DNA of 44,248 nucleotides from a virus. The stretch spans positions 1-44,248 of the IMG/VR virus record IMGVR_UViG_3300020158_000007; one strand, 5' to 3'. This document shows, piece by piece, positions 20,864 to 38,745 of this stretch. Numbering within the stretch: the first letter of the stretch is position 1; the number at the start of each line of letters is the position of its first letter. The position numbers and the translations under genes are program-made. Below the pieces are notes generated by a model. That model was not told where the DNA came from and searched no databases. It was given only the letters and a program-made list of their open reading frames with translations.

Positions 20864-20870
20864 CCCCTAA

Positions 20871-23069: not shown

Positions 23070-23095
23070 AAATGCCTTTCTTAGTGTAAGTGTGT

Positions 23096-23320: not shown

Positions 23321-23511
23321 TATTTTACTTCCTCAAAGGTTCTGTGACGCAAATCAATCTTCAGCGGACTCTTAAGTTTAATAACCTTGTCTGTCCCTGT
23401 CTTAATGTAAGCGATGCAAGTGGCTCTCCTACCATCTGGCTTTGCCGTAAAGACATAGGTATGGTTAGGGCAGGGCTCTGCCCATTTGGTTGTTTCGTGT
23501 GCTACATACAT
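23320..23511 (-). CDS. small basic hypothetical protein (63 aa)
   Basis: 63 residues from the ATG at 23511 in a TAATG overlap. Beta-rich and basic (TYVFTAKPDGRRATCIAYIK, KSPLKIDLRHRTF). No family recognised. It is coupled to both neighbours. Confidence 0.55.
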   Translation of the reverse strand: MYVAHETTKWAEPCPNHTYVFTAKPDGRRATCIAYIKTGTDKVIKLKSPLKIDLRHRTFEEVK

Positions 23512-23861: not shown

Positions 23862-23892
23862 TTGCGGCTCCGTTTTGTTAGTGTATGTAAGT

Positions 23893-23921
23893 ATTATACG
23901 ACCATTTTACCACTTTGTCAA
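23893..23921 (-). promoter_or_regulatory. early promoter cassette
   Basis: TTGACA (23916-23921), spacer with GTGGTAAAATGG, TATAAT (23893-23898). Confidence 0.75.
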
Positions 23922-23996
23922 CCATTGTCTAGGATTTAGGACTTACGTTGTTTTTTGGCAACAGCCCTGGTTGGCACCTAGTGAAAGGAGAATTCT

Positions 23997-24254
23997 TTAG
24001 TCCCAGCTCTTCTTGTCGCCAAAGCGTTCGTTCCAAGCGTATCCTGCTAGGTACTCTGCAACTTCTTCCTGTGAAGTTACGGTAACACGATCACCAAAGT
24101 CGCTACCAACGCCACCATAGTGTGGATCAGGCATACGACCATAGTAACTATCAGCACTACCGCGATCAAATAGGCTACCGTGCTCTTTACGCATAAACTC
24201 TGGGCCTTTGAGAGCACTTACAACTTTCTCTCTATCTGTAATTTCTGGATACAT
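23997..24254 (-). CDS. conserved small phage protein (85 aa)
   Basis: 85 residues. The block FDRGSADSYYGRMPDPHYG is a signature I recognise from many phage genomes as a family without assigned function. A helix ending GYAWNERFGDKKSW follows. Monocistronic early gene. Confidence 0.62.
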   Translation of the reverse strand: MYPEITDREKVVSALKGPEFMRKEHGSLFDRGSADSYYGRMPDPHYGGVGSDFGDRVTVTSQEEVAEYLAGYAWNERFGDKKSWD

Positions 24255-24286
24255 ATCTTACTCCTGCTTTGTTAGTGTATACAAGT

Positions 24287-24315
24287 ATTGTAACACTAAT
24301 TTGCCAAAAGGTCAA
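24287..24315 (-). promoter_or_regulatory. early promoter cassette
   Basis: TTGACC (24310-24315), spacer with TTTTGGCAAA, TACAAT (24287-24292), leader TACACTAAC and GGAG. Confidence 0.72.
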
Positions 24316-24350
24316 CCGGTTTACGAACAAAGCCCCAGTCCCTGACAGAG

Positions 24351-24514
24351 TGTTGTATTTTTACAACAAAGAGAGAAAGAGGTTGACAGGGCGGATAAAG
24401 GTGAACCCTGCGGCATCTCACGATGGACAGGGTTCGGGTTTGCCGGGACACTACCCCCAGCGACACTAACCATAGTCCATTGCGGACTACGACCTAAGGA
24501 CACTACTCCTTAGG
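24351..24514. ncRNA. highly structured non-coding stretch 2
   Basis: No gene between 24316 and 24528. Perfect stems: TGTTGTA/TACAACA (24351-24368), GAACCCTG/CAGGGTTC (24403-24435), TAGTCC/GGACTA (24473-24489) and CCTAAGGA/TCCTTAGG (24493-24514). It contains GGACACTACCCCCA at 24446-24459, identical to 14 nt in stretch 1, and a variant GGACACTACTCC at 24498. The shared motif and hairpin chain suggest a second member of one RNA family. It lies downstream of the 24529 gene in leftward reading. Confidence 0.55.
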
Positions 24515-24528
24515 ATTTGGAGCGCCTC

Positions 24529-24801
24529 TTAGACTAAGCCTAAAGCTAAAGCCTTGTAACCGGCAGCAATCAACTTACGTGTTGGTTGACCGATTTCATA
24601 TTCTGTTACCTGTACACCGTTGCCTGCCTTGCGTGAGTTTGCATAAACTGCGAAACCTGCTTGACGGATACGGCTTGCTTCGGCAGCAATGTTCTTGATA
24701 CCGAAACGCTTGTTAGCTTCGGAAGCAGAAACCTTTTCGCCCTGCTTCAATGCTGTGAATAACTTGTAAGTCTTTGTGTCTTTGTTAATTGAATAAACCA
24801 T
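24529..24801 (-). CDS. winged-helix-like small DNA-binding protein
   Basis: 90 residues. KTYKLFTALKQGEKVSASEANKRFGI followed by AAEASRIRQAGFAVYANSR and a beta hairpin VQVTEYEIG reads as a compact winged helix: a helix-turn-helix then a wing. Phage proteins of this pattern are usually small DNA-binding factors. Unlike its neighbours it has a long AT-rich leader with GAGGAAA. Confidence 0.58.
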   Translation of the reverse strand: MVYSINKDTKTYKLFTALKQGEKVSASEANKRFGIKNIAAEASRIRQAGFAVYANSRKAGNGVQVTEYEIGQPTRKLIAAGYKALALGLV

Positions 24802-24844
24802 TTTAATTTCCTCTATTAGATACTGTATCTAAACAGTTACATTA

Positions 24845-24872
24845 AGTATACAGCATATAATCAAGGTGTCAA
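24845..24872 (-). promoter_or_regulatory. early promoter, 16-nt spacer variant
   Basis: TTGACA (24867-24872), 16 nt, TATACT (24845-24850); no GGTAAA element. The stop of the 24869 gene is inside the -35 box. Confidence 0.68.
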
Positions 24873-25087
24873 CGATCAATATGTCCAAATTCTTTTGTGC
24901 TGTAATAATCGATCAAACGGCGCTGGATCATTGTTACCAAATCACCATTATCATCATCTATTACAAAACGGACAGGACATTGTCCCCACGCCCGTTTAGC
25001 TTGAAACTCAGCAAACCAACGTCTATGGTTCTTGTTCTTTGCATCAAATATTACAAACGGACGACCAAATAGATTGAGCTTAGTCAT
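24869..25087 (-). CDS. small hypothetical protein (72 aa)
   Basis: 72 residues from the ATG at 25087 overlapping the previous stop. Basic N-terminal half (LNLFGRPFVIFDAKNKNHRRWFAEFQAKRAW), then VRFVIDDDNGDLVTMIQRRLIDYY. It resembles a small beta-alpha protein; no named family. Confidence 0.55.
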   Translation of the reverse strand: MTKLNLFGRPFVIFDAKNKNHRRWFAEFQAKRAWGQCPVRFVIDDDNGDLVTMIQRRLIDYYSTKEFGHIDR

Positions 25088-25277
25088 TCTTTTTACCTCC
25101 AACCTTAGCCCTTATAAAGATGCCAAGTAGTATTACTGCCGCCCAAGTATTAAGAGCATAAGGAATGGCCAGTGTAGGAAACAATGTGTTCAACGACCAG
25201 ATGGTTAGCAACGGCCCTACTGCAACAATGACTATCATTAGTGCTAGCGACCCGAGTACAACGATCATTTCTTTCAT
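25080..25277 (-). CDS. small two-pass membrane protein (65 aa)
   Basis: 65 residues with hydrophobic segments at about 4-27 and 37-55 and a basic tail RAKVGGKKND, predicted inside. The WSLNTLFP segment in the loop resembles other small phage membrane proteins. GGAGTTGAT precedes the ATG. No promoter of the cassette type is seen in the 150 bases upstream. Confidence 0.58.
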   Translation of the reverse strand: MKEMIVVLGSLALMIVIVAVGPLLTIWSLNTLFPTLAIPYALNTWAAVILLGIFIRAKVGGKKND

Positions 25278-25428
25278 ATCAACTCCAGTTAGTGTTAGTG
25301 AGGGCTCTCTCGTTGGCCTTCACCACGTTACAGCGTACTACGGTTACGGAGGACTTACAAAAGCGTTAAGCGTTACCGCCACCCATGCCTCCTGGTCTGT
25401 CAAAGTTTAACGATGACGTTCGGTATTC

Positions 25429-25836
25429 TTAGTAAGGTGCGTCTTCCAAGTCTGCCAACTGCTTGGCTACTTCAGCTTTGGAAACCTTAGCCTTAGTCGC
25501 AACTGCCTTAGCCTTTACTGCATCCTTAGCAGGAGTAGACTTAACAGTCTTTGCTACTGCCTTAGCCTTAGGGGCTGCCTTTACTGCGGATGGTTGACGC
25601 TTGGACAAGTCTGCTTCCAATGCCTCACGGATGGCCTTATTGCCGTTATCAAAGTTGATGGATAAAAGGAATGCAACTGCGTCTTCCTTAACCATTGGCT
25701 CTTTCAATTCAATCATGTCAATGTCTTTGGAACCGGTTTTAGCCAATACCTTAACACGAGTCATGTCGCTAGCAAAACGAGCTTTGATAACACCATTACG
25801 GGTTGATACACCTGCGCATTTAAAAGTCTTACTCAT
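25429..25836 (-). CDS. Lys/Ala-rich protein, paralogue of 17406
   Basis: 135 residues. The N-terminal ~60 residues (AGVSTRNGVIKARFASDMTR...GSKDIDMIELKEP) match the product of 17406-17798 in order and spacing. The tail from ~80 is a histone H1-like Lys/Ala/Pro repeat (KAAPKAKAVAKTVK and similar), ending in an acidic helix. DNA or RNA binding is likely from composition. Monocistronic early gene. Confidence 0.62.
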   Translation of the reverse strand: MSKTFKCAGVSTRNGVIKARFASDMTRVKVLAKTGSKDIDMIELKEPMVKEDAVAFLLSINFDNGNKAIREALEADLSKRQPSAVKAAPKAKAVAKTVKSTPAKDAVKAKAVATKAKVSKAEVAKQLADLEDAPY

Positions 25837-25894
25837 AATTCAATACCTCTTTCTGTGTGTGTTTTAAATCTGGGACCTATTTCCCATTATTAAT

Positions 25895-25923
25895 AGTATA
25901 CTGCATTTCGGTCAATCTGTCAA
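25895..25923 (-). promoter_or_regulatory. early promoter
   Basis: TTGACA (25918-25923), 17-nt spacer GATTGACCGAAATGCAG, TATACT (25895-25900); unlike the common spacer. Confidence 0.7.
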
Positions 25924-25934
25924 CCGTTTTCTGG

Positions 25935-26099
25935 TTAACTGTTACAAGTTTCAAACGGGCTAAACTCTTCCTGTGGCTTTTTTACAACGATTGCGCCATC
26001 AATCTCTTTGTTTAACCATTCCATGATGTCCTGCTCTGCGTTACTGTCATCCCAGTTCTCGTAGTCCGGGTCCTCTGTAATGTATGCAAACCTACTCAT
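25935..26099 (-). CDS. small acidic protein (54 aa)
   Basis: 54 residues, MSRFAYITEDPDYENWDD..., acidic and Trp-containing. The ATG overlaps the upstream stop (ATGA). Last gene of the long 27223 operon. Function unknown. Confidence 0.55.
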   Translation of the reverse strand: MSRFAYITEDPDYENWDDSNAEQDIMEWLNKEIDGAIVVKKPQEEFSPFETCNS

Positions 26100-26224
26100 T
26101 TGGCTGCCTCCTTAGAGACTTCTTGCACTTTAGCTACACCATTATCAAACATACGAGCGATACCGCTAAATCCTACAGTAACGATCATAACCCCAAATAC
26201 TGTTCCAATGATAAACATTTTCAT
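26096..26224 (-). CDS. single-pass membrane microprotein (42 aa)
   Basis: 42 residues; hydrophobic helix MFIIGTVFGVMIVTVGFSGI at the N-terminus, then a charged amphipathic tail (VAKVQEVSKEAAK). A second ATG six bases in is possible. Overlaps both neighbours by four bases. Confidence 0.55.
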   Translation of the reverse strand: MKMFIIGTVFGVMIVTVGFSGIARMFDNGVAKVQEVSKEAAK

Positions 26225-26343
26225 TTTCTGTACCACCACCATTGTTTAATTTCGTCCCAAATCTTCGAAACGATGTCTCCGAACGCTGGGCCTAACCACC
26301 AACCCAACCCTATGCCTACTACAACTGATAAAAAGCTATTCAT
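26221..26343 (-). CDS. single-pass membrane microprotein (40 aa)
   Basis: 40 residues; glycine-rich hydrophobic helix FLSVVVGIGLGWWLGPAFG followed by a basic, Trp-rich end (KQWWWYRK). Placed between the 26336 and 26096 genes with overlaps on both sides, so it may pair with the next membrane microprotein. Confidence 0.55.
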   Translation of the reverse strand: MNSFLSVVVGIGLGWWLGPAFGDIVSKIWDEIKQWWWYRK

Positions 26344-26596
26344 CTTCGTCTTCCTCGTCATCGTCCGCGTAATCTTCGTCGGGCGCTAGGTTATAATCCA
26401 ATACTTCGTCTGTAACAACTTCTACTTCGGTAACACGCATGTCGCCATCGAAGCTACCTTCGCCCAATACCGCTCCTGCGTAATCCAACAAGTCCTGTTG
26501 CATGATTGCGGCTAGTGCATCGCCCTTGCCAGCAAACTCCATATCGTGATGTACTTCTGCTCGAATTGTGGTGTAGAATATAGTCTTATACTTCAT
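26336..26596 (-). CDS. hypothetical protein with acidic tail (86 aa)
   Basis: 86 residues from the ATG at 26596. N-terminal strand YKTIFYTTIRAEVHHD, a helix, then TEVEVVTDEVLDYN and a strongly acidic end (DDDEEDEDE). The strand-helix-strand core is probably a small ferredoxin-like fold. Inside the 27223 operon. Confidence 0.55.
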   Translation of the reverse strand: MKYKTIFYTTIRAEVHHDMEFAGKGDALAAIMQQDLLDYAGAVLGEGSFDGDMRVTEVEVVTDEVLDYNLAPDEDYADDDEEDEDE

Positions 26597-26762
26597 TTGG
26601 TTTCTCTCTGCTATCAAGTTCAGCTTCCAATATGGTACGACGAGCAATATCAAATGCACTGGGACTGTGCTGTTCTGCATATAGATCTGCAAGCGCAATC
26701 ACCTGGTCAACGGCTAGCTGGCTAACCTCTCGGGCAAAGTCTGTTAGTGTTTGAGATTTCAT
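26586..26762 (-). CDS. small helical protein (58 aa)
   Basis: 58 residues from the ATG at 26762 overlapping the MGTRS stop. Helical throughout (LTDFAREVSQLAVDQVIALADLY, AFDIARRTILEAEL). No family recognised. Confidence 0.55.
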   Translation of the reverse strand: MKSQTLTDFAREVSQLAVDQVIALADLYAEQHSPSAFDIARRTILEAELDSREKPNEV

Positions 26763-27223
26763 GCCGCCTCCCAATTCACGTTAGCCAATGCTTCGTCTAC
26801 TGGGCGGAAGCATCTGTTCTTGTAAGTACAAAATTGCCAGTACCCGTCCATATAGACATAGAAGTACTCACAACCACTGCCGTCGTAATAATCCATAAAC
26901 GCTGTCAAGTCGTCAAAGCTCTTAAACGGAGCATTCTCGCCTCTGTCGCGTGTGTAAAAAGTACAGTCCTTAGAGCAAGCTACCTTGTTACCAATGTCAG
27001 CATACATATCGTCTGTCATGTCGCGCCCAAACTCGTGTGCTTCGCCAATGTCAGCACCTAAGCTACTCATATGGCCCATTGACACCAGCTTGTTCGCTTT
27101 GACGTTGTCATTGTAACAGTTCTGCAAGATGTAGCCGTTATGCTCAATGTAGCCGTCCCAGTGGCAGTAAATTGCCTTAACACGTTCACCGTGCATTACT
27201 GCTATTGCTGATCTTGTTCCCAT
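26759..27223 (-). CDS. MGTRS-family phage protein (copy 2)
   Basis: 154 residues beginning MGTRSAIAVMHGERVKAIYCHWDGY, the stronger version of the family signature; KLVSMGHMSSLG and the C-terminal YFYVYMDGYWQF segment also fit. Several cysteines and an aromatic core suggest ligand binding. It leads a six-gene operon of very small proteins. Function of the family is unknown. Confidence 0.68.
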   Translation of the reverse strand: MGTRSAIAVMHGERVKAIYCHWDGYIEHNGYILQNCYNDNVKANKLVSMGHMSSLGADIGEAHEFGRDMTDDMYADIGNKVACSKDCTFYTRDRGENAPFKSFDDLTAFMDYYDGSGCEYFYVYMDGYWQFCTYKNRCFRPVDEALANVNWEAA

Positions 27224-27254
27224 TTGTTCGCTCGCTTTCTTAGTGTGTATAACT

Positions 27255-27283
27255 AGTATAGCATCAATTTACCAAAATGTCAA
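27255..27283 (-). promoter_or_regulatory. early promoter cassette
   Basis: TTGACA (27278-27283), spacer with TTTTGGTAAATTGA, TATACT (27255-27260). Confidence 0.77.
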
Positions 27284-27286
27284 CCA

Positions 27287-27481
27287 TTAAATGAATACGT
27301 CTTTGCTCAGTACTTCGTCTTCTACCAGCTTGTGGCAAGCATTCAACGTCAACTGCATTACCAAATACAACTGCGCCTTCTGCTCTGCAGGAAAGCCTTC
27401 AATCTGATTGCTAATCTGCTCTAGCGTTGGAGTTGCAAATAAGCCACTGCGTGGAATTGGGTTCTCTACTGTATTGTACAT
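27287..27481 (-). CDS. small hypothetical protein (64 aa)
   Basis: 64 residues, helical C-terminal part (EQISNQIEGFPAEQKAQLYLVMQLTLNACHKLV). Monocistronic, with its own cassette. No family recognised. Confidence 0.55.
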   Translation of the reverse strand: MYNTVENPIPRSGLFATPTLEQISNQIEGFPAEQKAQLYLVMQLTLNACHKLVEDEVLSKDVFI

Positions 27482-27510
27482 GTTATCTCGCTTTCTTAGT
27501 GTATGTGTAT

Positions 27511-27539
27511 ATTATAGCACAGGTTTTACCAAAAGTCAA
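27511..27539 (-). promoter_or_regulatory. early promoter cassette (archetype)
   Basis: TTGACT (27534-27539), spacer TTTGGTAAAACCTGTGC, perfect TATAAT (27511-27516). Confidence 0.8.
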
Positions 27540-27547
27540 CCCCTAAC

Positions 27548-27619
27548 TTACTTAAAGCTAATTTCGCTCCAAGCCTTTAATGCCTCTAATGCCCATTGGA
27601 TTTTCTGTTCTTCAGTCAT
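27548..27619 (-). CDS. microprotein (23 aa)
   Basis: Frame MTEEQKIQWALEALKAWSEI plus SFK, one amphipathic helix. It has a full early promoter of its own and nothing else between, which is the main support. Confidence 0.45.
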   Translation of the reverse strand: MTEEQKIQWALEALKAWSEISFK

Positions 27620-27642
27620 TGTGATCTCTTTCTTTAATGTAT

Positions 27643-27672
27643 ATTATAGCACAGGTTTTACCAAAAGGTCAA
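27643..27672 (-). promoter_or_regulatory. early promoter cassette, 18-nt spacer
   Basis: TTGACC (27667-27672), spacer with TTTTGGTAAAACCTGTGC, TATAAT (27643-27648). The end of the 27669 gene runs into it. Confidence 0.75.
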
Positions 27673-27884
27673 CCTTTAATTAATAACCCTGCCGCGTATA
27701 TGGTCAATAGGGCACCGTTGATAACGATCAAGTTGGCTTCTCGTATACGTACACTCCAAATCAAGTACAGTAAGGCGCCTAGTGCGAACATCTCACGGTT
27801 GTATCCAAGTACTTCAAAACTAGTTAACAGAGCCGCCGTTAAGGTTACTGCGCATGCTACCCACTTCAATATCGTATCAATCAT
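27669..27884 (-). CDS. small membrane protein (71 aa)
   Basis: 71 residues from the ATG at 27884 with AAGGGC upstream. Hydrophobic segments at about 8-22, 30-42 and 50-66. It overlaps the zinc microprotein upstream. Last gene of the 29008 operon. Function unknown. Confidence 0.55.
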   Translation of the reverse strand: MIDTILKWVACAVTLTAALLTSFEVLGYNREMFALGALLYLIWSVRIREANLIVINGALLTIYAAGLLIKG

Positions 27885-27957
27885 GCCCTTGGCAGTAGCC
27901 AACCTTTCCGTCTGTATTCTCTTTAACCTTCAACTTGCAACATGCGCATCTGTACAT
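27877..27957 (-). CDS. zinc-ribbon-like microprotein (26 aa)
   Basis: 26 residues: MYRCACCKLKVKENTDGKVG then YCQGHD. The C-x-C-C and C-x-x-H pairs could bind one zinc. Its ATG and stop overlap the neighbours (TAATG upstream), typical of real operon members here. Confidence 0.5.
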   Translation of the reverse strand: MYRCACCKLKVKENTDGKVGYCQGHD

Positions 27958-28283
27958 TATGCATACTCCCAACGGCTAGCATAGTTGATGCCTGCTACAA
28001 TCCGTTGATAGACATCTCGCTTGCTCATATAGTAATCGTAGTTCTGATCCTGTGGGCCAAAGTTGAACCACATGTTTGATCTAGCATTATCCAAAATGTC
28101 TTTCTCTAGATCGTGTGCCGAATAGTATGCCTTGAAGCCGTTGATACTGTAATGAGCAATGAACCCTGATGCTAGGTAAAGGAACTTATAACCAGATGAG
28201 TTCAATGATTCGATGTCGTTGATTGCCTTTAGAACATTGCTTACAATCAAGTCCTGCTGTCTAGATGTTAACGGCTTAATCAT
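27957..28283 (-). CDS. hypothetical protein (108 aa)
   Basis: 108 residues, helical with many tyrosines (FIAHYSINGFKAYYSAHDLEKDI, YDYYMSKRDVYQRIV). Its start overlaps the stop of the 28283 gene. No family recognised. Confidence 0.58.
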   Translation of the reverse strand: MIKPLTSRQQDLIVSNVLKAINDIESLNSSGYKFLYLASGFIAHYSINGFKAYYSAHDLEKDILDNARSNMWFNFGPQDQNYDYYMSKRDVYQRIVAGINYASRWEYA

Positions 28284-29008
28284 TATGCCACCTCTTTCAA
28301 AAACACTACGAAGCCTGTAGTGTCCTTCTTAGCCTTGCCCTTGGCCTTTAAGCCAACTACCACATTGCTTGGGTCCAGGAAGCGCAAGTCACTCTCGTCG
28401 CCGTCAAACACTGTACGGCCCTTGTACTCTGCAGGAGTCTTATTGAAAACTACAGTTACATTCAAGCCTTGTTCAATAGCCTTGTTCACGTCTGCATCGT
28501 TGCCATCTGCTTTAGAAAATGTCAAATGGTAGTTCTTAATGCTAGCAACCTTACGACCCAGGACCTTAGTATAGTCATAGAACTGTACTGTAGGAAAGCA
28601 TTGGAAAATGTTACGCTCAGTACCTGGAACTTCGTACTTCTCCCAGCTCAAGTCACTAGTACCGTTCAAACGGAATACAGGAGTCAGTCCCTGCTTGCGA
28701 GCATAATTAATAGCCCGAGCAATGTCGCTATGCAAGTCTAACATAAATTGGTCTCTGTCAAAGAAGAACGCCACTGTCTTACGGATGCGAGCCTTCTGAA
28801 TCATGTTAGTAGTCTCACCGCGCTTGAACATGCCACCGCGCCCTGCTGTATTGAGGCAAGCTGATTTGCAACCTGCTGTAGCCTTTGGGCAAGTATTACC
28901 TGCGCCCGATACATCGCTTGGGCTAAGGTGTAGGATATAAGTCATGTAGCCCTGTTTCTCGCCCTTAAGTGTTTTAGGGTTACCAGTTGATAATAGTTTG
29001 AATGTCAT
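28283..29008 (-). CDS. conserved phage protein with cysteine cluster (241 aa)
   Basis: 241 residues. NTCPKATAGCKSACLNTAGRGG carries four conserved-looking cysteines, later followed by RLNGTSDLSWE, YDYTK, HLTFSKAD and the C-terminal GDESDLRFLDPSNVVVGLKAKG. I recognise this order of blocks from a broad family of phage-encoded proteins of unknown biochemistry; the cysteines could hold a metal or Fe-S cluster. It leads an operon with 27957, 27877 and 27669. Confidence 0.65.
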   Translation of the reverse strand: MTFKLLSTGNPKTLKGEKQGYMTYILHLSPSDVSGAGNTCPKATAGCKSACLNTAGRGGMFKRGETTNMIQKARIRKTVAFFFDRDQFMLDLHSDIARAINYARKQGLTPVFRLNGTSDLSWEKYEVPGTERNIFQCFPTVQFYDYTKVLGRKVASIKNYHLTFSKADGNDADVNKAIEQGLNVTVVFNKTPAEYKGRTVFDGDESDLRFLDPSNVVVGLKAKGKAKKDTTGFVVFLKEVA

Positions 29009-29038
29009 TGTATGCTCGCTTTCTTAGTGTATATAAGT

Positions 29039-29067
29039 ATTATAGCACAGGTTTTACCAAAAGTCAA
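29039..29067 (-). promoter_or_regulatory. early promoter cassette
   Basis: TTGACT (29062-29067), spacer TTTGGTAAAACCTGTGC, TATAAT (29039-29044). The stop of the 29064 microgene is inside the -35 box. Confidence 0.8.
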
Positions 29068-29153
29068 CCTCTATCGTTAGGAATATCTTGCACGGCATAC
29101 CACAATAACCCTACAACCGCTAGGGCTATTAGGACAGCTATTATATACTGCAC
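29064..29153 (-). CDS. membrane microprotein (29 aa, GTG start)
   Basis: One hydrophobic helix (YIIAVLIALAVVGLLWYAV) with a short polar tail DIPNDRG. The GTG overlaps the preceding TAG and the TGA lies in the next promoter. Confidence 0.45.
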   Translation of the reverse strand: MQYIIAVLIALAVVGLLWYAVQDIPNDRG

Positions 29154-29308
29154 TAGACTCTAGCCCTGTATACTGTACGCAACCACCAGCGATAGGATGT
29201 AAAGTAATCCTGTTGGGTATAGGTAGGAGCAAGGCCCGTCCAGGTGCGGACTTCGTCACAATGCTCCATCCACATCTCCTGGCACCAAGCCCTAAAGCTC
29301 ATGTTCAT
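29153..29308 (-). CDS. small Trp-rich protein (51 aa)
   Basis: 51 residues with six tryptophans (SFRAWCQEMWMEH, YRWWLRTVYRARV). The ATG overlaps the previous TGA. It may be a peripheral membrane or protein-binding peptide; unknown. Confidence 0.52.
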   Translation of the reverse strand: MNMSFRAWCQEMWMEHCDEVRTWTGLAPTYTQQDYFTSYRWWLRTVYRARV

Positions 29309-29466
29309 GCCTCAACACCGCAGGCAGCATAGAAGCGACTACGATCAAATCGATCATTGTGTCGGGCTCCTGCGTTCGCTACAGCCATTGCCGCAATGCG
29401 ACGGGCTGTGATATCTGTGATGTAGCTGATCTCTAGTGCTAGTGTTTCAAAGTGTTTACGTGACAT
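29305..29466 (-). CDS. conserved small phage protein (53 aa)
   Basis: 53 residues starting MSRKHFETLALEISYI and ending in a NDRFDRSRFYAACG block, a pattern common among small phage proteins of unknown function. First gene of a three-gene early operon, with GGAGCGACACA before the ATG. Confidence 0.62.
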   Translation of the reverse strand: MSRKHFETLALEISYITDITARRIAAMAVANAGARHNDRFDRSRFYAACGVEA

Positions 29467-29493
29467 TGTGTCGCTCCTTTAGTGTATATAAGT

Positions 29494-29522
29494 ATTATAG
29501 CATACAATTTACCAAAAGTCAA
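29494..29522 (-). promoter_or_regulatory. early promoter cassette
   Basis: TTGACT (29517-29522), spacer TTTGGTAAATTGTATGC, TATAAT (29494-29499). Confidence 0.8.
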
Positions 29523-29529
29523 CCGCTAG

Positions 29530-29739
29530 TTAAAAATGCGGATCCAAATGCTCGTGTACGCCTTTGCTCATCCAGCAGTACCTGTTCCCTGTCATTCTGT
29601 AGTAGTCGCCAATTTTAGTAAACTTCATTCCGTTGTCTACAAAAATAAACTTCTTAGTAATGCGCACAATTTTACCTGCATAATAGCTATCACAATTAAT
29701 GCCATAGCTTACATCATCGCCTACGTTATATTCTACCAT
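29530..29739 (-). CDS. conserved small phage protein (69 aa)
   Basis: 69 residues, beta-rich: VGDDVSYGINCDSYYAGKIVRITKKFIFVD suggests a small barrel, with a C-terminal WMSKGVHEHLDPHF. I recognise the composition from other phages without a known role. Monocistronic early gene. Confidence 0.6.
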   Translation of the reverse strand: MVEYNVGDDVSYGINCDSYYAGKIVRITKKFIFVDNGMKFTKIGDYYRMTGNRYCWMSKGVHEHLDPHF

Positions 29740-29766
29740 TTGTCGCTCTCCTTAGTGTATGTAAGT

Positions 29767-29795
29767 ATTATAACACCAATTTACCAAAAGGTCAA
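29767..29795 (-). promoter_or_regulatory. early promoter cassette
   Basis: TTGACC (29790-29795), spacer TTTTGGTAAATTGGTGT, TATAAT (29767-29772). Confidence 0.8.
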
Positions 29796-29796
29796 C

Positions 29797-29865
29797 CTAT
29801 AGCCGTGTAAAAAGGTACAGTACTATTAATGCCATTATAGTAAAGGTATAGTCTATTTCAGTCAT
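29797..29865 (-). CDS. membrane microprotein (22 aa)
   Basis: MTEIDYTFTIMALIVLYLFT plus RL: a single hydrophobic helix. The ATG overlaps the end of the 29858 gene and the stop sits next to the downstream -35 box. Confidence 0.42.
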   Translation of the reverse strand: MTEIDYTFTIMALIVLYLFTRL

Positions 29866-30112
29866 TGTCTAGCCCGCGCCCATAGAAGGGGGTCTTGTAG
29901 CCCAAGTCCAAGTATACTATCTCTCTGACGACTGTATCGTAGGCCTCAATGGCTGTTCGCTTATGCGCTTGAGATAAGATGAGTAGGCGGCGCTGGACCT
30001 CTGGCCACCCCAAGCCCTGTACACGAGCCTCCACTACTATGTTACTGACAAGGGCGTTGCCCTGCTTGCTAAACATGCCAAAGTCTTTACTCACTAGCAC
30101 ACTCCCCGTCAT
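29858..30112 (-). CDS. hypothetical protein (84 aa)
   Basis: 84 residues, helical core (LSNIVVEARVQGLGWPEVQ-type, RRLLILSQAHKRTAIEAYDTVV). Overlaps the 30087 gene by 26 bases. Function unknown. Confidence 0.55.
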   Translation of the reverse strand: MTGSVLVSKDFGMFSKQGNALVSNIVVEARVQGLGWPEVQRRLLILSQAHKRTAIEAYDTVVREIVYLDLGYKTPFYGRGLDND

Positions 30113-30419
30113 GTTCCATTAACGCTTCAATAGCGTCTGCAACTCTGTCGCTTTCACTGCTATAAAAAGTGTAGTCGCCTAGCGTAGTGCGCCCATCACC
30201 CTCTTTAATATATTCAAAGCCGCCGTAGTAGTCAAGCCTGCTTCCAGTGTATGCAACAATAGTGTCTTCGTCAACCCAAAGCATACCACATCGCTCGTCA
30301 AGCCCAAGTCTGCTTGCAGTCTCTTTACGCATGCCCTGTACATGTCTCTCAACTACTTCGCTAATCGCGTCTAGCAAGTCTGCGCTATTGTCAAAATCAG
30401 TGTCTGTAAAGTAACCCAT
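30087..30419 (-). CDS. hypothetical protein (110 aa)
   Basis: 110 residues, acidic. A helical N-terminus (LLDAISEVVERHVQGMRKE) is followed by strands (GMLWVDEDTIVAYTG, YGGFEYIKEG) and a final helix. First gene of a three-gene early operon; no family recognised. Confidence 0.58.
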   Translation of the reverse strand: MGYFTDTDFDNSADLLDAISEVVERHVQGMRKETASRLGLDERCGMLWVDEDTIVAYTGSRLDYYGGFEYIKEGDGRTTLGDYTFYSSESDRVADAIEALMEHDGECASE

Positions 30420-30451
30420 TTGTTGCTCCTTTTGTTTAAGTGTATGTGTAT

Positions 30452-30481
30452 ATTATAGCACAGGTTTTACCAAATAGTCAA
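30452..30481 (-). promoter_or_regulatory. early promoter cassette, 18-nt spacer
   Basis: TTGACT (30476-30481), spacer ATTTGGTAAAACCTGTGC, TATAAT (30452-30457). Confidence 0.78.
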
Positions 30482-30486
30482 CCACT

Positions 30487-30684
30487 TTATGCAAGTAATT
30501 GTAACTGTCGTCTAAAGGCAACACGCACTGCATCCCATGCTTCAGTGTATGTCGTGTCATATACTTCCGCCAGCCCGTTTACTTCTGCCGCGTCCATAAA
30601 GCCCTCGTACTGTACATCGCCCTCTAGCAACATACGCACCCTGCGCACCGCAATAGTCTCTACCGCTTCGTCAAATGTTTTCAT
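30487..30684 (-). CDS. small hypothetical protein (65 aa)
   Basis: 65 residues from the ATG at 30684, which has GGAG five bases upstream; the GTG at 30690 is badly spaced. Helical, starting MKTFDEAVETIAVRRVRMLL. Coupled to the 30687 gene. Function unknown. Confidence 0.56.
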   Translation of the reverse strand: MKTFDEAVETIAVRRVRMLLEGDVQYEGFMDAAEVNGLAEVYDTTYTEAWDAVRVAFRRQLQLLA

Positions 30685-30686
30685 GT

Positions 30687-31040
30687 TCACTCCATGCTCG
30701 CCATGCCGTCGTCTTGCATGCCCTGCTCTGTGTAGTATACATCATCGTCTAGTAGCTCGCTAATAGCATCTGCAAACCCAGTATCTGTGTAAAGTCTCCA
30801 GCTTCCCTCTTTAGCGTCCTCACCATCAACTGTATAGTATACATTAATAGTCTTGTAGCTCGCGTAGTCGCCGCCTGCCACTCCCTCTGTAATGCAAATG
30901 TCTGTAACTGTTACCTGCGCTAAGTCACAGTCCCAAATGCTGTCGCCAGCAAGTGTTACCTGTTCACTACAAGTGTAATGCCTAGTAGTCATGTCGTCGT
31001 CTTTGCTTACTTCTTTTAGTGTTAGTTTATCGCTAATCAT
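30687..31040 (-). CDS. hypothetical protein (117 aa)
   Basis: 117 residues, beta-rich first half (QVTLAGDSIWDCDLAQVTVTDI, YKTINVYYTVDG), acidic second half. First gene of a two-gene operon behind a promoter whose spacer is a palindrome. No family recognised. Confidence 0.58.
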   Translation of the reverse strand: MISDKLTLKEVSKDDDMTTRHYTCSEQVTLAGDSIWDCDLAQVTVTDICITEGVAGGDYASYKTINVYYTVDGEDAKEGSWRLYTDTGFADAISELLDDDVYYTEQGMQDDGMASME

Positions 31041-31063
31041 ATCGCTCCTTTAGTGTAGTGTGT

Positions 31064-31092
31064 AGTATAACACAGCGTTGCCGCTGTGTCAA
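31064..31092 (-). promoter_or_regulatory. early promoter with palindromic spacer
   Basis: TTGACA (31087-31092), TATACT (31064-31069). The spacer is replaced by CACAGCG/CGCTGTG, a perfect 7-bp inverted repeat at 31071-31088 reaching into the -35 box, suggestive of an operator. Confidence 0.68.
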
Positions 31093-31097
31093 GTACT

Positions 31098-31427
31098 TTA
31101 GCAAAACAGCGTAACTTCCATCTCAGCATCCAACCACTTGCTTCCATCTTCAAGTACTAATACCTGTGCTTGTCGTGCATAACAGCGTGTCTCTGCTATT
31201 CCACTATGTACAGCAATAATGTCTACAATTTCCACTTCCTCTACTTTGTCTGCTATTTGTTCAACTGTAGCGTAAACGCATTCACCTGTTGTTTCTGTAG
31301 CTAGTGTATAAAAGTCCAGCAAGTGTGTATCCTCGCCATCGTATGCTACAATGTCCTCAGCTACGTCGCTGTACCGCGCTTCGCATAAGCACATGTAATT
31401 TTTGTTAAGTTCTAGTGTATTAAACAT
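31098..31427 (-). CDS. hypothetical protein (109 aa)
   Basis: 109 residues from the ATG at 31427 with GGAGCAATT upstream. Acidic, mostly beta (VEEVEIVDIIAVHSG, QVLVLEDGSKWLDAEMEVTLF) with five cysteines. Monocistronic early gene. Confidence 0.57.
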   Translation of the reverse strand: MFNTLELNKNYMCLCEARYSDVAEDIVAYDGEDTHLLDFYTLATETTGECVYATVEQIADKVEEVEIVDIIAVHSGIAETRCYARQAQVLVLEDGSKWLDAEMEVTLFC

Positions 31428-31451
31428 AATTGCTCCTTTAGTGTATAGTGT

Positions 31452-31480
31452 ATAATAGCATACTTTTACCAAAATGTCAA
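31452..31480 (-). promoter_or_regulatory. early promoter cassette
   Basis: TTGACA (31475-31480), spacer TTTTGGTAAAAGTATGC, TATTAT (31452-31457). Confidence 0.78.
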
Positions 31481-31666
31481 CTAGTTAAGTATAAGCTCTT
31501 CTACTTCGTATTCAAATGCTTCAAAGCCCTCTGCCGCGTTTTCCGCAATAAAAGCTTCAATTTGTGCTTCAGCCGCTTTAAGTGTAGTAAATGCCGCTAA
31601 GTTTTCGTAAGCGTCTTCGTCATCGCCAAGCCCAAGTCCGCGTACAATGTAAATATTTTGTGTCAT
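31481..31666 (-). CDS. small hypothetical protein (61 aa)
   Basis: 61 residues: first strand MTQNIYIVRGLG, an acidic loop, a helix (TTLKAAEAQIEAFIAENA) and a last strand FEYEVEELIL; a small ferredoxin-like arrangement. First gene of the leftward block, divergent from 31834. Confidence 0.57.
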   Translation of the reverse strand: MTQNIYIVRGLGLGDDEDAYENLAAFTTLKAAEAQIEAFIAENAAEGFEAFEYEVEELILN

Positions 31667-31696
31667 TTAAAGCTCCTTTTGTTTAGTGTATAGTGT

Positions 31697-31725
31697 ATAA
31701 TAACACACTTTGGTAAAAAGGTCAA
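31697..31725 (-). promoter_or_regulatory. early promoter cassette, inverted spacer element
   Basis: TTGACC (31720-31725), spacer with TTTTTACCAAAG, TATTAT (31697-31702). Confidence 0.75.
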
Positions 31726-31768
31726 GTTGTTTTTAGAACACACACAAAGCAAAGGGTCTTTGTTCCGG

Positions 31769-31797
31769 TTGACAATTTATCAAAAGCATGCTATTAT
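31769..31797 (+). promoter_or_regulatory. rightward early promoter
   Basis: TTGACA (31769-31774), 17 nt, TATTAT (31792-31797); the leader has ACACTAAGGAGC as in the leftward cassettes. Confidence 0.78.
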
Positions 31798-31833
31798 TAC
31801 ACAACACTAACGCAATACACTAAGGAGCCCGAC

Positions 31834-32091
31834 ATGCAAACTAATTGTCAAGCATACGCAAAAATCATCACTAATAAGCGTCTTAATACTTTGCGCTTAC
31901 TAGTTACTTTTGACAGTACTAAACGAGATAAAAATGGTAGTATTATTGTTACAGTTAAGAATTGTGCTTATGCCAGCGGTGATTTAATTAGCGTTGATAA
32001 TACTACTAGTGAGCAACGCAATGCGGCACTAGCCCGCGCTATTATAACAGCGAAACAAGTACTGCGCACTGAGAACTTTAGATTAGTATAA
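31834..32091 (+). CDS. small hypothetical protein (85 aa)
   Basis: 85 residues, beta-rich N-terminal half (KRLNTLRLLVTFDST, GSIIVTVKNCAYASGDLI) and a helical end. It is the only rightward gene of this early block, with its own strong promoter and RBS. A structured non-coding stretch follows its stop. Function unknown. Confidence 0.6.
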   Translation: MQTNCQAYAKIITNKRLNTLRLLVTFDSTKRDKNGSIIVTVKNCAYASGDLISVDNTTSEQRNAALARAIITAKQVLRTENFRLV

Positions 32092-32114
32092 TAAGATAAT
32101 GAGTATATAAGAAA

Positions 32115-32375
32115 ATCCCCCTTTAATATGGATAATATTATCGGGGGATAATCAAAGGGATTATCTGGTTGAGTATGCCTATAATCCCCCACCCGGATGT
32201 CCCTGCCTTCCCAGGCGAGCCTCAACCACTTAGAGTTTGTGGTCTCCGGTTAGGTCTGACTGCGGCAAGATTATATCCTGTCCTCATATCGCTGGCAGTA
32301 ACCCCCAGCCTCTAAGTGCCTGTTACTTGCTACGATCATATATCTCGTGACCTGCGGTTTGTCATTTACCACGAG
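32115..32375. ncRNA. structured non-coding stretch 3
   Basis: No gene from 32092 to 32404. Stems: ATCCCCC/GGGGGAT (32115-32149), GGTTGAG/CTCAACC (32167-32227), CACTTAGAG/CTCTAAGTG (32228-32318) enclosing GCTGG/CCAGC (32291-32309), and CTCGTG/CACGAG (32344-32375). The GCTGG loop reads CAGTAACCC, loosely like the ACTACCCCC motif of stretches 1 and 2. It could be the 3' end of the 31834 transcript or the trailer of the leftward tRNA transcript. Confidence 0.5.
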
Positions 32376-32404
32376 TTATACTCATAGTAAGTTCTTTAAG
32401 TTCA

Positions 32405-32481
32405 TGGTGGGCCGAGAGTGATTCGAACACTCCACCAAAGGATTATGAGTCCTCTGCTCTAACCTAATGAGCTACCGGCCC
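32405..32481 (-). tRNA. tRNA with CAU anticodon (Met or Ile2)
   Basis: Full cloverleaf on the minus strand: acceptor GGGCCGG/TCGGCCC with one G-T pair, D arm GCTC...GAGC, anticodon stem GAGGA/TCCTT with loop CTCATAA, T arm GAGTG TTCGAAT CACTC, and an encoded CCA. A CAU anticodon means elongator Met, or Ile if the first base is changed to lysidine; the sequence alone does not settle which. Confidence 0.9.
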
Positions 32482-32521
32482 TAATCGTATTATATATAGT
32501 TATACTGTATACACTCTATAT

Positions 32522-32550
32522 AGTATACACTAGATGTCAGTTACAGTCAA
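32522..32550 (-). promoter_or_regulatory. promoter of the tRNA
   Basis: Minus-strand TTGACT (32545-32550), 17 nt, TATACT (32522-32527); ends ~40 bases before the mature 5' end. Confidence 0.7.
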
Positions 32551-35983: not shown

Positions 35984-36199
35984 ATGCTGATAGTGTACAC
36001 AGACGTCTTATTGCCGGAACACACAGAGGCTATAACAGCTTTGGATCCTGAAGCTAGCTATTGGCCTAGCAATCATCAACTCGACTTATTCTTTGAAGTT
36101 GTACCCATAGAATGGAACATTATCTTTACCAATTCAAACTCTGCTACCCATTGGCTACTGTTGTATTCAGCTAACAGTCATGTTGCAAATTTGCACTAG
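35984..36199 (+). CDS. small hypothetical protein (71 aa)
   Basis: 71 residues. Starts with strand MLIVYTDVLLP and has LFFEVVPIEWNIIFTNSNSATHWLLLY, similar in feel to the FxLRW proteins downstream but lacking the signature. No ribosome site; it sits right behind a late-type promoter. Confidence 0.5.
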   Translation: MLIVYTDVLLPEHTEAITALDPEASYWPSNHQLDLFFEVVPIEWNIIFTNSNSATHWLLLYSANSHVANLH

Positions 36200-36211
36200 A
36201 TCCTGTATACT
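36183..36211 (+). promoter_or_regulatory. sigma-70 promoter of the FxLRW array
   Basis: TTGCAA, 17 nt, TATACT (36206-36211); the ATG at 36218 is six bases beyond the -10 box, so the first array gene is probably leaderless. Confidence 0.58.
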
Positions 36212-36217: not shown

Positions 36218-36442
36218 ATGACTGCGGATTCTCCTTACCCTCACTTGCTGTATATGGCTTATACTGAGCACCCTTACCCAGAGGTAGAAGCATGGTGTAT
36301 GGAACATATAGGCCCCCATGAAACAGCATGGTATAAGCTAGGGCAGGATCTGGCCGCTGTGGTTGTGGGTTATCGTAGTCAGGAGTACTGGTTCCGTACC
36401 CCCGAGGATAGGCTAATGTTTATACTACGTTGGGGTACCTGA
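36218..36442 (+). CDS. FxLRW small-protein array, member 1 (74 aa)
   Basis: 74 residues ending YWFRTPEDRLMFILRWGT. The array signature is a strand with an aromatic-Phe pair, a short acidic turn, then a helix or strand with F/Y-x-L-R-W two or three residues from the end. The N-terminal part is unlike the other members. First gene behind the 36183 promoter; the next gene starts in the ATGA-type overlap. Confidence 0.65.
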   Translation: MTADSPYPHLLYMAYTEHPYPEVEAWCMEHIGPHETAWYKLGQDLAAVVVGYRSQEYWFRTPEDRLMFILRWGT

Positions 36443-36615
36443 TGTTTAAGTTTACCAAGCAATATCCTGTGTTCGGCGGCATAACAACCGATCAGTGGAA
36501 CTGGTTGTGCGATACTGTGAGTCCACCAAGAAAAGAATGGATTGTGGGCAAAGGTGCTGTCTGGTTTAAACAAGAAAAGCATAAGGTGTTATATTTGCTA
36601 CGCTGGGGGTCTTAG
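36442..36615 (+). CDS. FxLRW array, member 2 (57 aa)
   Basis: 57 residues from the ATG at 36442 overlapping the previous stop. DQWNWLCDTVSPPRKEW, then VWFKQEKHKVLYLLRWGS. Member 4 shares DQWNWLCD, PRK-[DE]-W and the EKHK..Y-x-LRW end, so these two are recent duplicates. Confidence 0.65.
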   Translation: MFKFTKQYPVFGGITTDQWNWLCDTVSPPRKEWIVGKGAVWFKQEKHKVLYLLRWGS

Positions 36616-36795
36616 GTGACTGAGATACACCCCCTTGAAGTTTGGGTGGAAAATGAAGCAGGGTGGATGTTGTCCTGGCAAGGGCATGAGCTATGGTGCT
36701 CAGATAACTGTAAGGGCTATTGGTATAGAAGCCACGGTGTATTTTGGTTTGAAGAAACAGACGATGCTGTATACTTTGCGTTAAGGTGGGCATGA
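36616..36795 (+). CDS. FxLRW array, member 3 (59 aa, GTG start)
   Basis: 59 residues from a GTG directly after the previous TAG. Trp-rich (VWVENEAGWMLSWQGHELW), ending VFWFEETDDAVYFALRWA. The stop overlaps the next ATG. Confidence 0.62.
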   Translation: MTEIHPLEVWVENEAGWMLSWQGHELWCSDNCKGYWYRSHGVFWFEETDDAVYFALRWA

Positions 36796-36965
36796 CAACA
36801 CCCCTTAACGAAAAGTATGCGGTTCCTATTCGCATGTCTAATGATCAATGGAACTGGCTATGTGATAATATAGGCGTACCAAGAAAGGATTGGTTCTATA
36901 ATTTTGGTCATGTATGGTTTCTTGAAGAGAAGCATAAAATTATGTATATATTGAGGTGGTTGTGA
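36792..36965 (+). CDS. FxLRW array, member 4 (57 aa)
   Basis: 57 residues; SNDQWNWLCDNIGVPRKDW then VWFLEEKHKIMYILRWL. Clear duplicate of member 2. ATGA overlap upstream. Confidence 0.65.
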   Translation: MTTPLNEKYAVPIRMSNDQWNWLCDNIGVPRKDWFYNFGHVWFLEEKHKIMYILRWL

Positions 36966-37225
36966 TTAATATTGAAGAATCCATATTAGAAGATCTTGGC
37001 AAACAACTGTCAGATGCAGTTGACTTTGAAATTCTCGCAGAGCTATTGTGGAAAGTCGAGGGGTGGATTAAGTTTGAAATCCCACGATTCGTAGACAACC
37101 ATCACGCTGTAGATATCGGATATTGGTTATTAGATAACTGCCAGGGCGAGTATAAACGCAACGGCCGTACCTTCCTGTTCGAAAGCCCTAAAGATGCTAC
37201 ACTGTTTATCTTACGGTGGGCATGA
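36962..37225 (+). CDS. FxLRW array, member 5 (87 aa, GTG start)
   Basis: 87 residues from a GTG at 36962 overlapping the previous TGA. Longer acidic helical N-terminus, then TFLFESPKDATLFILRWA, the form closest to the array consensus. Confidence 0.63.
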   Translation: MINIEESILEDLGKQLSDAVDFEILAELLWKVEGWIKFEIPRFVDNHHAVDIGYWLLDNCQGEYKRNGRTFLFESPKDATLFILRWA

Positions 37226-37443
37226 TACTACAAGACTCTCGCTACTATAATGGCCTGCTAGATGAATATGAGCAGTTAGAAAGGCATCGTACTAGAAACC
37301 AACTCTATTTGGATCCGGCCTATTATCGCAGGTTTGAAGCATGGCTAGTAGCCGAACACAAGTGTAGGGCTCGTAGCGAACGCATGCTAGAATTTAACAG
37401 TGAGCAGGATGCCACAATGTTTTTATTAAAATGGAACGGATGA
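37222..37443 (+). CDS. FxLRW array, member 6 (73 aa)
   Basis: 73 residues from the ATG at 37222 overlapping the previous stop. Helical, Arg/Tyr-rich body; ends RMLEFNSEQDATMFLLKWNG. Last member before the inverted membrane gene. Confidence 0.63.
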   Translation: MILQDSRYYNGLLDEYEQLERHRTRNQLYLDPAYYRRFEAWLVAEHKCRARSERMLEFNSEQDATMFLLKWNG

Positions 37444-37445
37444 TG

Positions 37446-37727
37446 TTAGCTCTTATACTGGTTGATCCATGTGTTGAGCAATGATATGGTAAAAATTGCT
37501 GTGCCAATATCCTTAAGTGTCCAGAACTGTTCCCAGAATGGAGCATCTAATGATGTACCTGTGAACACAAAGAATGCTTGCCCAACTAGGCCACATGCTA
37601 TTGTAGCGAACCCTAGCTTCTTAAGTGGAGCCCAGTCACGAGTTGGCCCCGAAATCAATAAACACATCATAGCAAAGCCTACTACAATATTCAATCCACT
37701 TAACCAACTAAAAAATAACAAGTTCAT
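37446..37727 (-). CDS. multi-pass membrane protein, possibly holin-like
   Basis: 93 residues from the ATG at 37727, which has GGAG seven bases upstream; the ATG at 37739 would be at or before the predicted transcript start. Three hydrophobic segments (about 2-26, 36-55 and 70-86) and short loops. Size and topology fit class I holins, but no sequence match is claimed. It interrupts the rightward array in opposite orientation. Confidence 0.5.
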   Translation of the reverse strand: MNLLFFSWLSGLNIVVGFAMMCLLISGPTRDWAPLKKLGFATIACGLVGQAFFVFTGTSLDAPFWEQFWTLKDIGTAIFTISLLNTWINQYKS

Positions 37728-37747
37728 ATAATTCTCCATTAACCCAA

Positions 37748-37755
37748 TATTTATT
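37748..37755 (-). promoter_or_regulatory. late-type promoter for the 37727 membrane gene
   Basis: AATAAATA on the minus strand; predicted start near 37742, leaving GGAG and the ATG at 37727 in the transcript. Confidence 0.5.
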
Positions 37756-37760
37756 AAATT

Positions 37761-38033
37761 ATGAATCCGACCACTGACTACACTCCTTTAGAATCTACAG
37801 AATATACAATCAGTTGTTGGCGCAACCAAGAATTGCGAAATGTCCTGCATCCCGCTTGGCAGAATATGGTTGATAGTATAGACGACGACCTTGAGTGGGA
37901 TGAATACAATAACGCTGTTGATCGTATTATGCGTAAGTACAATGCTAAAATGATTCGTCCTACTACTCAACCGCATTATATGCGGTTCCCAGATGAAAAA
38001 ATGGCCATGCTATTTTTACTAGAATGGTCATGA
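37761..38033 (+). CDS. FxLRW array, member 7 (90 aa)
   Basis: 90 residues. Helical centre (WQNMVDSIDDDLEWDEYNNAV) and the C-terminal HYMRFPDEKMAMLFLLEWS, the same layout with Glu for Arg. It resumes the array after the inverted membrane gene. Confidence 0.62.
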   Translation: MNPTTDYTPLESTEYTISCWRNQELRNVLHPAWQNMVDSIDDDLEWDEYNNAVDRIMRKYNAKMIRPTTQPHYMRFPDEKMAMLFLLEWS

Positions 38034-38045
38034 AATTGCTACCTA

Positions 38046-38270
38046 ATGATTGAATTTAAACTAGAAGGGCATACCCCCGGAGAAATGTTAGATATTGTTA
38101 GAGAACTTAGAGCTCAGGGTATGCAAACAGGGGTAGACTTCGACTTTGCCTATATGCCAGTTACCTACGGAGAAGACGGGTGTTATGATATGCATGAACA
38201 GCCCTACACTCGGTTTTCCTTTTACAATGAAAAAGCCGGGTTAATCTTTACCCTAAAATACGCACAATGA
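38046..38270 (+). CDS. FxLRW array, member 8, diverged (74 aa)
   Basis: 74 residues. LEGHTPGEMLDIVRELRAQGMQ is a helix-turn segment; the end RFSFYNEKAGLIFTLKYAQ keeps the F-turn-F-x-L-K-aromatic pattern, with Tyr in place of Trp. Its stop overlaps the next ATG. Confidence 0.58.
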   Translation: MIEFKLEGHTPGEMLDIVRELRAQGMQTGVDFDFAYMPVTYGEDGCYDMHEQPYTRFSFYNEKAGLIFTLKYAQ

Positions 38271-38476
38271 AAATAACTAAAGACGAATATAGAGATTTTG
38301 AAAAGTATTATATTATGGAAAGCCTACGTAATCCAGACTACAGATTGGGGCAGGCTTTTATTAATTACTTTCCTGCTGTGTCTAGAAAGATGTCTGAAAG
38401 AGAATCTACTATGTTATTTTATATAGCAGATAACAGTGACGCACAACTTTGGATCGACCAACACAGGACCCTATGA
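38267..38476 (+). CDS. small conserved phage protein (69 aa)
   Basis: 69 residues starting MKITKDEYRDFEKYY with RLGQAFINYF and a late FYIADNSDAQLWI. I associate the ITKEEY...RLGQAFxN layout with small proteins in T4-like marine phages; function unknown. It does not carry the LRW end. Confidence 0.57.
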   Translation: MKITKDEYRDFEKYYIMESLRNPDYRLGQAFINYFPAVSRKMSERESTMLFYIADNSDAQLWIDQHRTL

Positions 38477-38745
38477 CTTCTCAATTTAACCCTAATAACC
38501 CCGAACCATACCTAAAAAGTAAACGTCGCAAACGCAACAATCCTAGATTTAATTTGGTTAGCGATAACCAGCATGGCTACTTTTATACTGTAGACGTAGA
38601 TACAGAAGTAATGAATTGGATACTAGAAACTCAGCCTGTGTTTATGTGGAAATACGATAATGATGTTTCGGGCGGGTATTTGCACATGCAACGAATAATG
38701 ATGCTACCCAAACTTTATACCCTAATAGGGTTAATGTGGACTTAA
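38473..38745 (+). CDS. hypothetical protein with LMW end (90 aa)
   Basis: 90 residues from the ATG at 38473 overlapping the previous stop. A basic N-terminal segment KSKRRKRNNPRF precedes beta segments; the end is YTLIGLMWT, a possible very diverged array member. Convergent with the next gene (four-base overlap). Confidence 0.52.
   Translation: MTSQFNPNNPEPYLKSKRRKRNNPRFNLVSDNQHGYFYTVDVDTEVMNWILETQPVFMWKYDNDVSGGYLHMQRIMMLPKLYTLIGLMWT

Follow-up and report, generated by a model that had tools for sequence, protein, structure and literature searches.

Tandem arrays of small tryptophan-rich phage proteins in which the codons of a conserved C-terminal motif also form a ribosome site for the next gene

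The accessory regions of T4-like phages consist of small, variable, overlapping and co-directional genes, mixing unrelated families. Jumbo phages show lineage-specific expansions of single families, such as the zinc-ribbons of Bacillus phage G (PMC7824862), and in overlapping gene pairs of E. coli it has been established experimentally that a Shine-Dalgarno sequence inside the upstream gene promotes reinitiation at the downstream one (PMC6728339). Here, we describe an array of small genes at 36-38 kilobases (kb) of the virus record IMGVR_UViG_3300020158_000007, whose products mostly end in F-x-L-R-W or a close variant; the whole record of 44,248 bases was analyzed and is called the window below. 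The array is similar to T4-like accessory regions in its small overlapping co-directional genes, whereas T4 combines unrelated families and has no member of this one. Phage G, with ~35 zinc-ribbon copies, is likewise a large phage with dozens of small paralogues, but its domain is unrelated, and the family considered here is mostly tandem, coupled and common to many phages. By computation, we delimited this family and its extent, and found selection for a ribosome site in the codons of the motif, purifying selection on the proteins and gene-by-gene turnover of the arrays. A first-pass annotation of the window had noticed at least eight consecutive genes with a shared C-terminal signature behind mostly unrelated N-terminal halves; the feature is more interesting than was noted then, and for a different reason.

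Family membership and the codons of the L-R-W motif

Family members were searched with a degenerate DNA pattern for D-A-x-x-F-x-L-R-W-[GA]-stop in which any Arg codon was allowed, and since every Arg codon is permitted, the codon test given below is not biased by the search. The pattern matched at least 119 viral contig stretches, usually with several members per stretch on one strand, and 583 members passed a profile hidden Markov model (HMM), distributed over 117 of the 119 stretches among the matches listed. When the profile was trained on loci from other phages only, with the window excluded (consensus KKGWTRVRIPWKDKSYDKWDEILDWCKENFGKPRGGRWSDISYNGGGTFYFEDEKDATLFLLRWA), the eight window genes took ranks 1-8 among 710 open reading frames (ORFs). 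This ranking upheld the earlier view of a paralogous family with a common C-terminal element; the family exceeds chance and recurs in other phages, while the supposedly unrelated N-terminal halves turned out to be the same domain of ~60 amino acids (aa) throughout, diverged in sequence. Conservation extends over the whole domain (W25 in helix 1, 92%; W/Y/F38, ~90%; F51, 86%) up to the residues near the C-terminus (F60, 93%; L62, 97%; W64, 95%). Trp makes up 6.6% of the residues, and the median isoelectric point (pI) is 6.0, with 48% of the domains below 6.

Single members gave no match in Pfam, PHROGs and PDB sequence searches. With 107 diverse members, no Pfam or PHROGs family was matched by more than two members at E 0.1, and the PDB sequence search returned E-values of at least 0.47. 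When single members or the consensus were compared by tblastn with 50,697 phage records, there was no match or weak ones only; members in the phages Phosso, Atu_ph07 and PA5oct were reached by the profile and not by tblastn. A description of the family was not found in the literature searched (open-licence papers only), and it is a real family of small phage proteins, apparently undescribed so far.

In searches of whole records, contigs of 58-180 kb had 3-28 matches, three records of 339-353 kb had 5-22, and a record of 607 kb had 45, the highest number per record, with the longest arrays reaching 24 members. Sinorhizobium phage Phosso had 38 matches, dispersed over its genome on both strands, Agrobacterium phage Atu_ph07 had 5-6, and the Pseudomonas phages PA5oct and Paride had 4 each, while the same model found none in T4, phiKZ, K64-1, XaC1, Vibrio 2.275 and Kaldavass. 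The replicative helicase of the window has its nearest counterparts in the jumbo phages PA5oct, Atu_ph07 and Phosso, at 48-52% identity. Prophage-like members were also detected in Microvirga, Methylorubrum, Caballeronia and Burkholderia by a DNA-pattern search of genome contigs, and ~20 family genes form a tandem array on a 6.4-kb contig that was binned as Bacteroidetes (DLXM01000070.1), which is possibly a misbinned phage contig. The genes on this contig have apparent GAGGT-type ribosome sites, a type that Bacteroidetes rarely use (PMC6728339). In two other loci (L066:3828-4259 and L093:11479-11943), members carry an N-terminal extension with a Walker A-like motif (GRNIGKS, GRQTGKS) before the domain.

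Family-wide, 230 of 400 junctions are overlaps of 4 or 1 nucleotides (nt), and here the L-R-W motif is typically written TTG-AGG-TGG: Leu is mostly TTG, and Arg is AGG at 206 of the 230 overlap junctions, compared with 7% of the Arg codons elsewhere in the same proteins, giving the 3' consensus TTTnnnTTGAGGTGGnC-ATG-A. The string GAGGTG was present in 158 of 276 ATGA/GTGA junctions, against 5.4 ± 2.3 expected and a maximum of 14 in 1000 synonymous resamplings, in which the same residues were recoded by the family's own codon usage. Similarly, AGGTGG was found in 118 of 212 family ATGA pairs vs. 3 of 163 unrelated ATGA pairs from the same loci. We conclude that the protein sequence of the motif is under constraint and that, in arrays, its codons are constrained as a Shine-Dalgarno sequence as well; both this codon-level result and the family itself are well supported. 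In Phosso, with its loose arrays, F-x-L is retained and the Arg is variable, so the signature is in part due to gene coupling. The coupling described for E. coli (PMC6728339) is alike in its ATGA/TGATG (4- and 1-nt) overlaps and in having the Shine-Dalgarno sequence at the 3' end of the first gene, but here the ribosome site is written in the codons of a protein motif conserved throughout the family and is repeated from gene to gene; no description of a ribosome site doubling as a conserved protein motif along an array was found in the literature searched. A variant with AGA-TGG, where AG-ATG-G supplies the next ATG, has an open frame in 58 of 92 AGA members and is tentatively considered a second start mode, the same frame holding other starts too.

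Predicted fold and evolution of the arrays

AlphaFold2 models were generated for members 3 and 5, both with one family alignment of 107 sequences, which makes them not fully independent. Both models have a beta-alpha-beta-beta-alpha topology, with a core predicted local distance difference test (pLDDT) score of ~91 for member 3 and of 94-97 for the domain core of member 5, where helix 76-86 holds the motif. Each protein is thus predicted to be a single compact domain of ~60 residues, a good prediction in our view, and F-x-L-R-W is predicted to form the last turns of helix 2, as part of the fold core and not as a detachable tag. A common C-terminal element is accordingly found in the models of these two divergent members, while a constant docking tag joined to unrelated front ends, as pictured by the first-pass annotation, does not agree with one domain throughout and a motif in a predicted core helix. 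None of the solved structures was matched significantly by Foldseek (best E 0.4 and 2.9); its non-significant neighbours include a KH-S1 construct and eIF1, and KH, eIF1, LAGLIDADG and DUF77 were all dismissed as fold relatives because the matches are non-significant. In BFVD, uncharacterised proteins of 'uncultured Caudovirales phage' and Atu_ph07, entries lacking functional annotation, share the predicted fold (probability up to 1.00), and as four of the matches are below E 0.001 with 30-38% identity, they evidently belong to the same family. Since conserved hydrophobic positions (49 and 51) alternate with variable ones (48, 50 and 52) along the strands, with the alternation also seen at 4, 7 and 9, a constant core with a variable open sheet face is suggested.

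Clustering at 55% identity resulted in 355 groups, of which 276 are singletons, and two members of one group occur together in only two loci, so the arrays are collections of old, distinct members and not fresh duplications. Order is conserved between related arrays, with single genes gained or lost: the cluster order is 0-105-20-1-285-255 in loci L010 and L019 and 0-105-20-134-1-165-285-255 in L050 and L101, while L052 and L033 diverge further. The ratio of nonsynonymous to synonymous substitution rates (dN/dS), calculated for 148 pairs with the last 8 codons excluded, had a median of 0.19 and a maximum of 0.57, with none above 0.8. Individual members are therefore under purifying selection and have conserved functions.

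Proposed account and competing explanations

We propose, with a probability of roughly 0.55 for the account as a whole, that the array is a lineage-expanded family of small Trp-rich phage proteins whose L-R-W codons provide the next ribosome site and whose products are accessory binders. In tight arrays, TTG AGG TGG would act as the Shine-Dalgarno sequence and the final NCA-TGA would hold the overlapping ATG of the next gene, making each gene a cassette that passes translation to its successor. Because each gene would hand translation on, cassettes could be added, lost or replaced singly while the array stays translatable, a model that we consider plausible. A stronger version, a self-propagating format in which the codons of the C-terminal helix serve at once as part of the fold and as the ribosome site of whatever cassette follows, falls somewhat short of even odds. 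If true, any family member inserted downstream would be translated automatically, and phages could in this way build up and exchange large sets of small effector proteins. As to function, we infer with moderate confidence that these are accessory binding proteins made during infection, which would bind host, defence or phage proteins inside the infected cell through the variable open sheet face of a conserved scaffold.

Several observations weigh against this account. Many members that lack an overlapping successor keep Arg-Trp and use ordinary Arg codons, so the ribosome site explains the codon choice and only in part the conservation of the residues; ~40% of the family ATGA junctions have no strong Shine-Dalgarno sequence, and member 8 of the window overlaps its successor without one. 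The binding role is inferred, and the low dN/dS speaks against a fast arms race. The array lies outside a block of repeated sigma-70-like promoters at 16.6-32.5 kb, and for this reason an immediate-early host takeover is not indicated. In favour of the account, the PA5oct members do not carry the electrospray ionization tandem mass spectrometry (ESI-MS/MS) note that virion proteins have, which is weak evidence, as the small size (70-90 aa) limits detection.

Among the rivals, nucleic-acid-binding regulators (KH, eIF1 or RRM-like) of phage replication or translation are the most serious, a live although rather improbable option to which the small alpha/beta fold with many aromatics, the position of several relatives' arrays within a replication gene cluster and the weak, non-significant Foldseek neighbours (KH-S1 construct and eIF1) would lend themselves, but which is at odds with the absence of a significant structural match, with the pI distribution given above and with a profile that has neither a conserved basic patch nor a GxxG loop. 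Almost as probable is a hetero-oligomeric assembly, also a live rival, whose subunits would be kept at a fixed ratio by coupled translation. According to PMC10666635, genes that overlap in pairs commonly code for subunits of heteromeric complexes, and members with one common fold could pack together; however, copy numbers from 3 to 45 per record, the gain and loss of single members and the scatter of the Phosso members over both strands fit a defined assembly poorly.

The adaptors or inhibitors proposed by the first-pass annotation, with unrelated front ends and one shared C-terminal docking tag for one partner, appear unlikely to us. That the C-terminus is the most conserved part, and that most array members end 1-2 residues after the Trp, is what such a tag would produce, but homology spans the whole domain, the predicted models place the motif in a core helix, the loosely coupled members of Phosso have lost the Arg, and the terminal position follows from the geometry of the ribosome site. 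Least credible is the notion that the motif is a mere by-product of overlapping ribosome sites in little-constrained proteins: strong as the codon-level signal is, the median dN/dS outside the last 8 codons largely refutes it, F51, F60, L62 and W25 are equally conserved outside or independently of the ribosome site, and the domain is retained in uncoupled members. Two other candidates were set aside, namely DNA mimicry, rejected on the pI, and fast-evolving counter-defence proteins, for which an elevated dN/dS would be expected.

These results define a large, apparently unannotated protein family of big phages, some of which encode dozens of copies. They also provide a concrete, testable case of a short stretch under selection in its protein sequence and as a signal for translation; such dual coding offers a mechanical reason for the growth of small phage genes into arrays. 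The isolated relatives Phosso (on Sinorhizobium meliloti, 38 copies), PA5oct and Paride make it accessible at the bench.

The array in the window and its surroundings

The genes of the array and the Shine-Dalgarno sequences within them are listed in Table 1. All eight C-termini quoted by the first-pass annotation were located where it had placed them, and its two GTG starts were confirmed. Members 2 and 4, which it called near duplicates, are only 52% identical, and the genes are not strictly consecutive, a minus-strand gene lying between members 6 and 7. It had also described nearly all starts as overlapping the previous stop, which applies to five of the seven junctions (overlapping or abutting) and not to the other two; overlaps of 4 or 1 nt are found at 36442, 36792, 36962, 37222, 38267 and 38473. 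The codon at the Arg position of the motif is AGG in members 3 and 4, CGG in member 5, AAA in members 6 and 8 and GAA in member 7, and members 3, 4 and 5 agree with the family-wide pattern; in member 6, where this codon specifies Lys, there is no Shine-Dalgarno sequence and the following gene is on the opposite strand. A regular-expression scan found the endings clustered at the array, with only scattered chance matches elsewhere in the window.

Table 1. Genes and Shine-Dalgarno sequences of the array (positions in the window)
Feature	Positions	Strand	Length (aa)	Start, end or sequence	Evidence or remark
Member 1	36218..36442	+	74	FILRWGT end; stop/next ATG overlap TGATG	HMM E 1.8e-13
Member 2	36442..36615	+	57	YLLRWGS end	HMM E 2.9e-8
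Member 3	36616..36795	+	59	GTG start; FALRWA end	HMM E 2.4e-12
Shine-Dalgarno for member 4	36783..36789	+		AAGGTGG	In L-R-W codons of member 3; ATG at 36792
Member 4	36792..36965	+	57	YILRWL end; 4-nt overlap with member 3	HMM E 2.7e-10
Shine-Dalgarno for member 5	36953..36959	+		GAGGTGG	In L-R-W codons of member 4; GTG at 36962
Member 5	36962..37225	+	87	GTG start; FILRWA end	HMM E 3.4e-15
Partial Shine-Dalgarno for member 6	37214..37219	+		CGGTGG	In member 5; ATG at 37222
Member 6	37222..37443	+	73	FLLKWNG end	HMM E 2.8e-7
Likely membrane protein	37446..37739	-	97		Between members 6 and 7; ORF, hydrophobic sequence
Member 7	37761..38033	+	90	FLLEWS end	Type II HMM E 8e-13; type I E 1.8e-5
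Member 8, diverged	38046..38270	+	74	FTLKYAQ end	HMM E 0.011
ORF of the same operon	38267..38476	+	69	No LRW ending	PHROG 6714 (unknown function), E 1.5e-7
Member 9 (probable)	38473..38745	+	90	LIGLMWT end	BLASTP E 7e-7 to L012

Homologues in other loci were found for member 1 (44% identity, L027), member 4 (57%, L023) and member 5 (43-48%). Member 7 falls into a second subfamily (W-x-N-F ... FxxE...FLLRWS), and the diverged member 8 is matched over its full length by homologues within other arrays (39-43% identity, E 4e-14). Homologues of the 69-aa ORF lie inside or next to other arrays (L009, L081, L235), and those of the last ORF, which belong to arrays and end in LRWA, LRWS or LKWI, make it a probable ninth member.

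Several of the relatives' arrays adjoin or interleave with zinc-finger, UvsW-like helicase and exonuclease-like genes and a gene that begins with 'DIDIDF', names that are our own reading of the sequences, and because of these neighbours they are placed in the replication cluster. Homologues of some of these replication-cluster genes are located at 2.4-6.1 kb of the window, whereas the array is at 36-38 kb. In PA5oct (L154:7956-18021), the members share a region with annotated ClpX, ClpS, ClpP, heat shock protein and FtsH homologues; a degron, suggested by these neighbours and by the likeness of LRWA to a protease tag, was set aside, as the segment is predicted to be core helix and its last residue varies.

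Upstream of member 1, the scan gave a single promoter-like site (36183-36211), which was no better than chance. Across the window, 49 sigma-70-like promoter matches were counted vs. 17 expected, and ~20 copies of a repeated element with TTGACA-type and TATAAT-type hexamers are present on the minus strand at 16660-32550, which looks like an early-gene block with a strong sigma-70-type promoter before many of its small genes. Two small proteins of this minus-strand block (21164-21700 and 26759-27223) share an MGTRS stretch and are possibly diverged paralogues.

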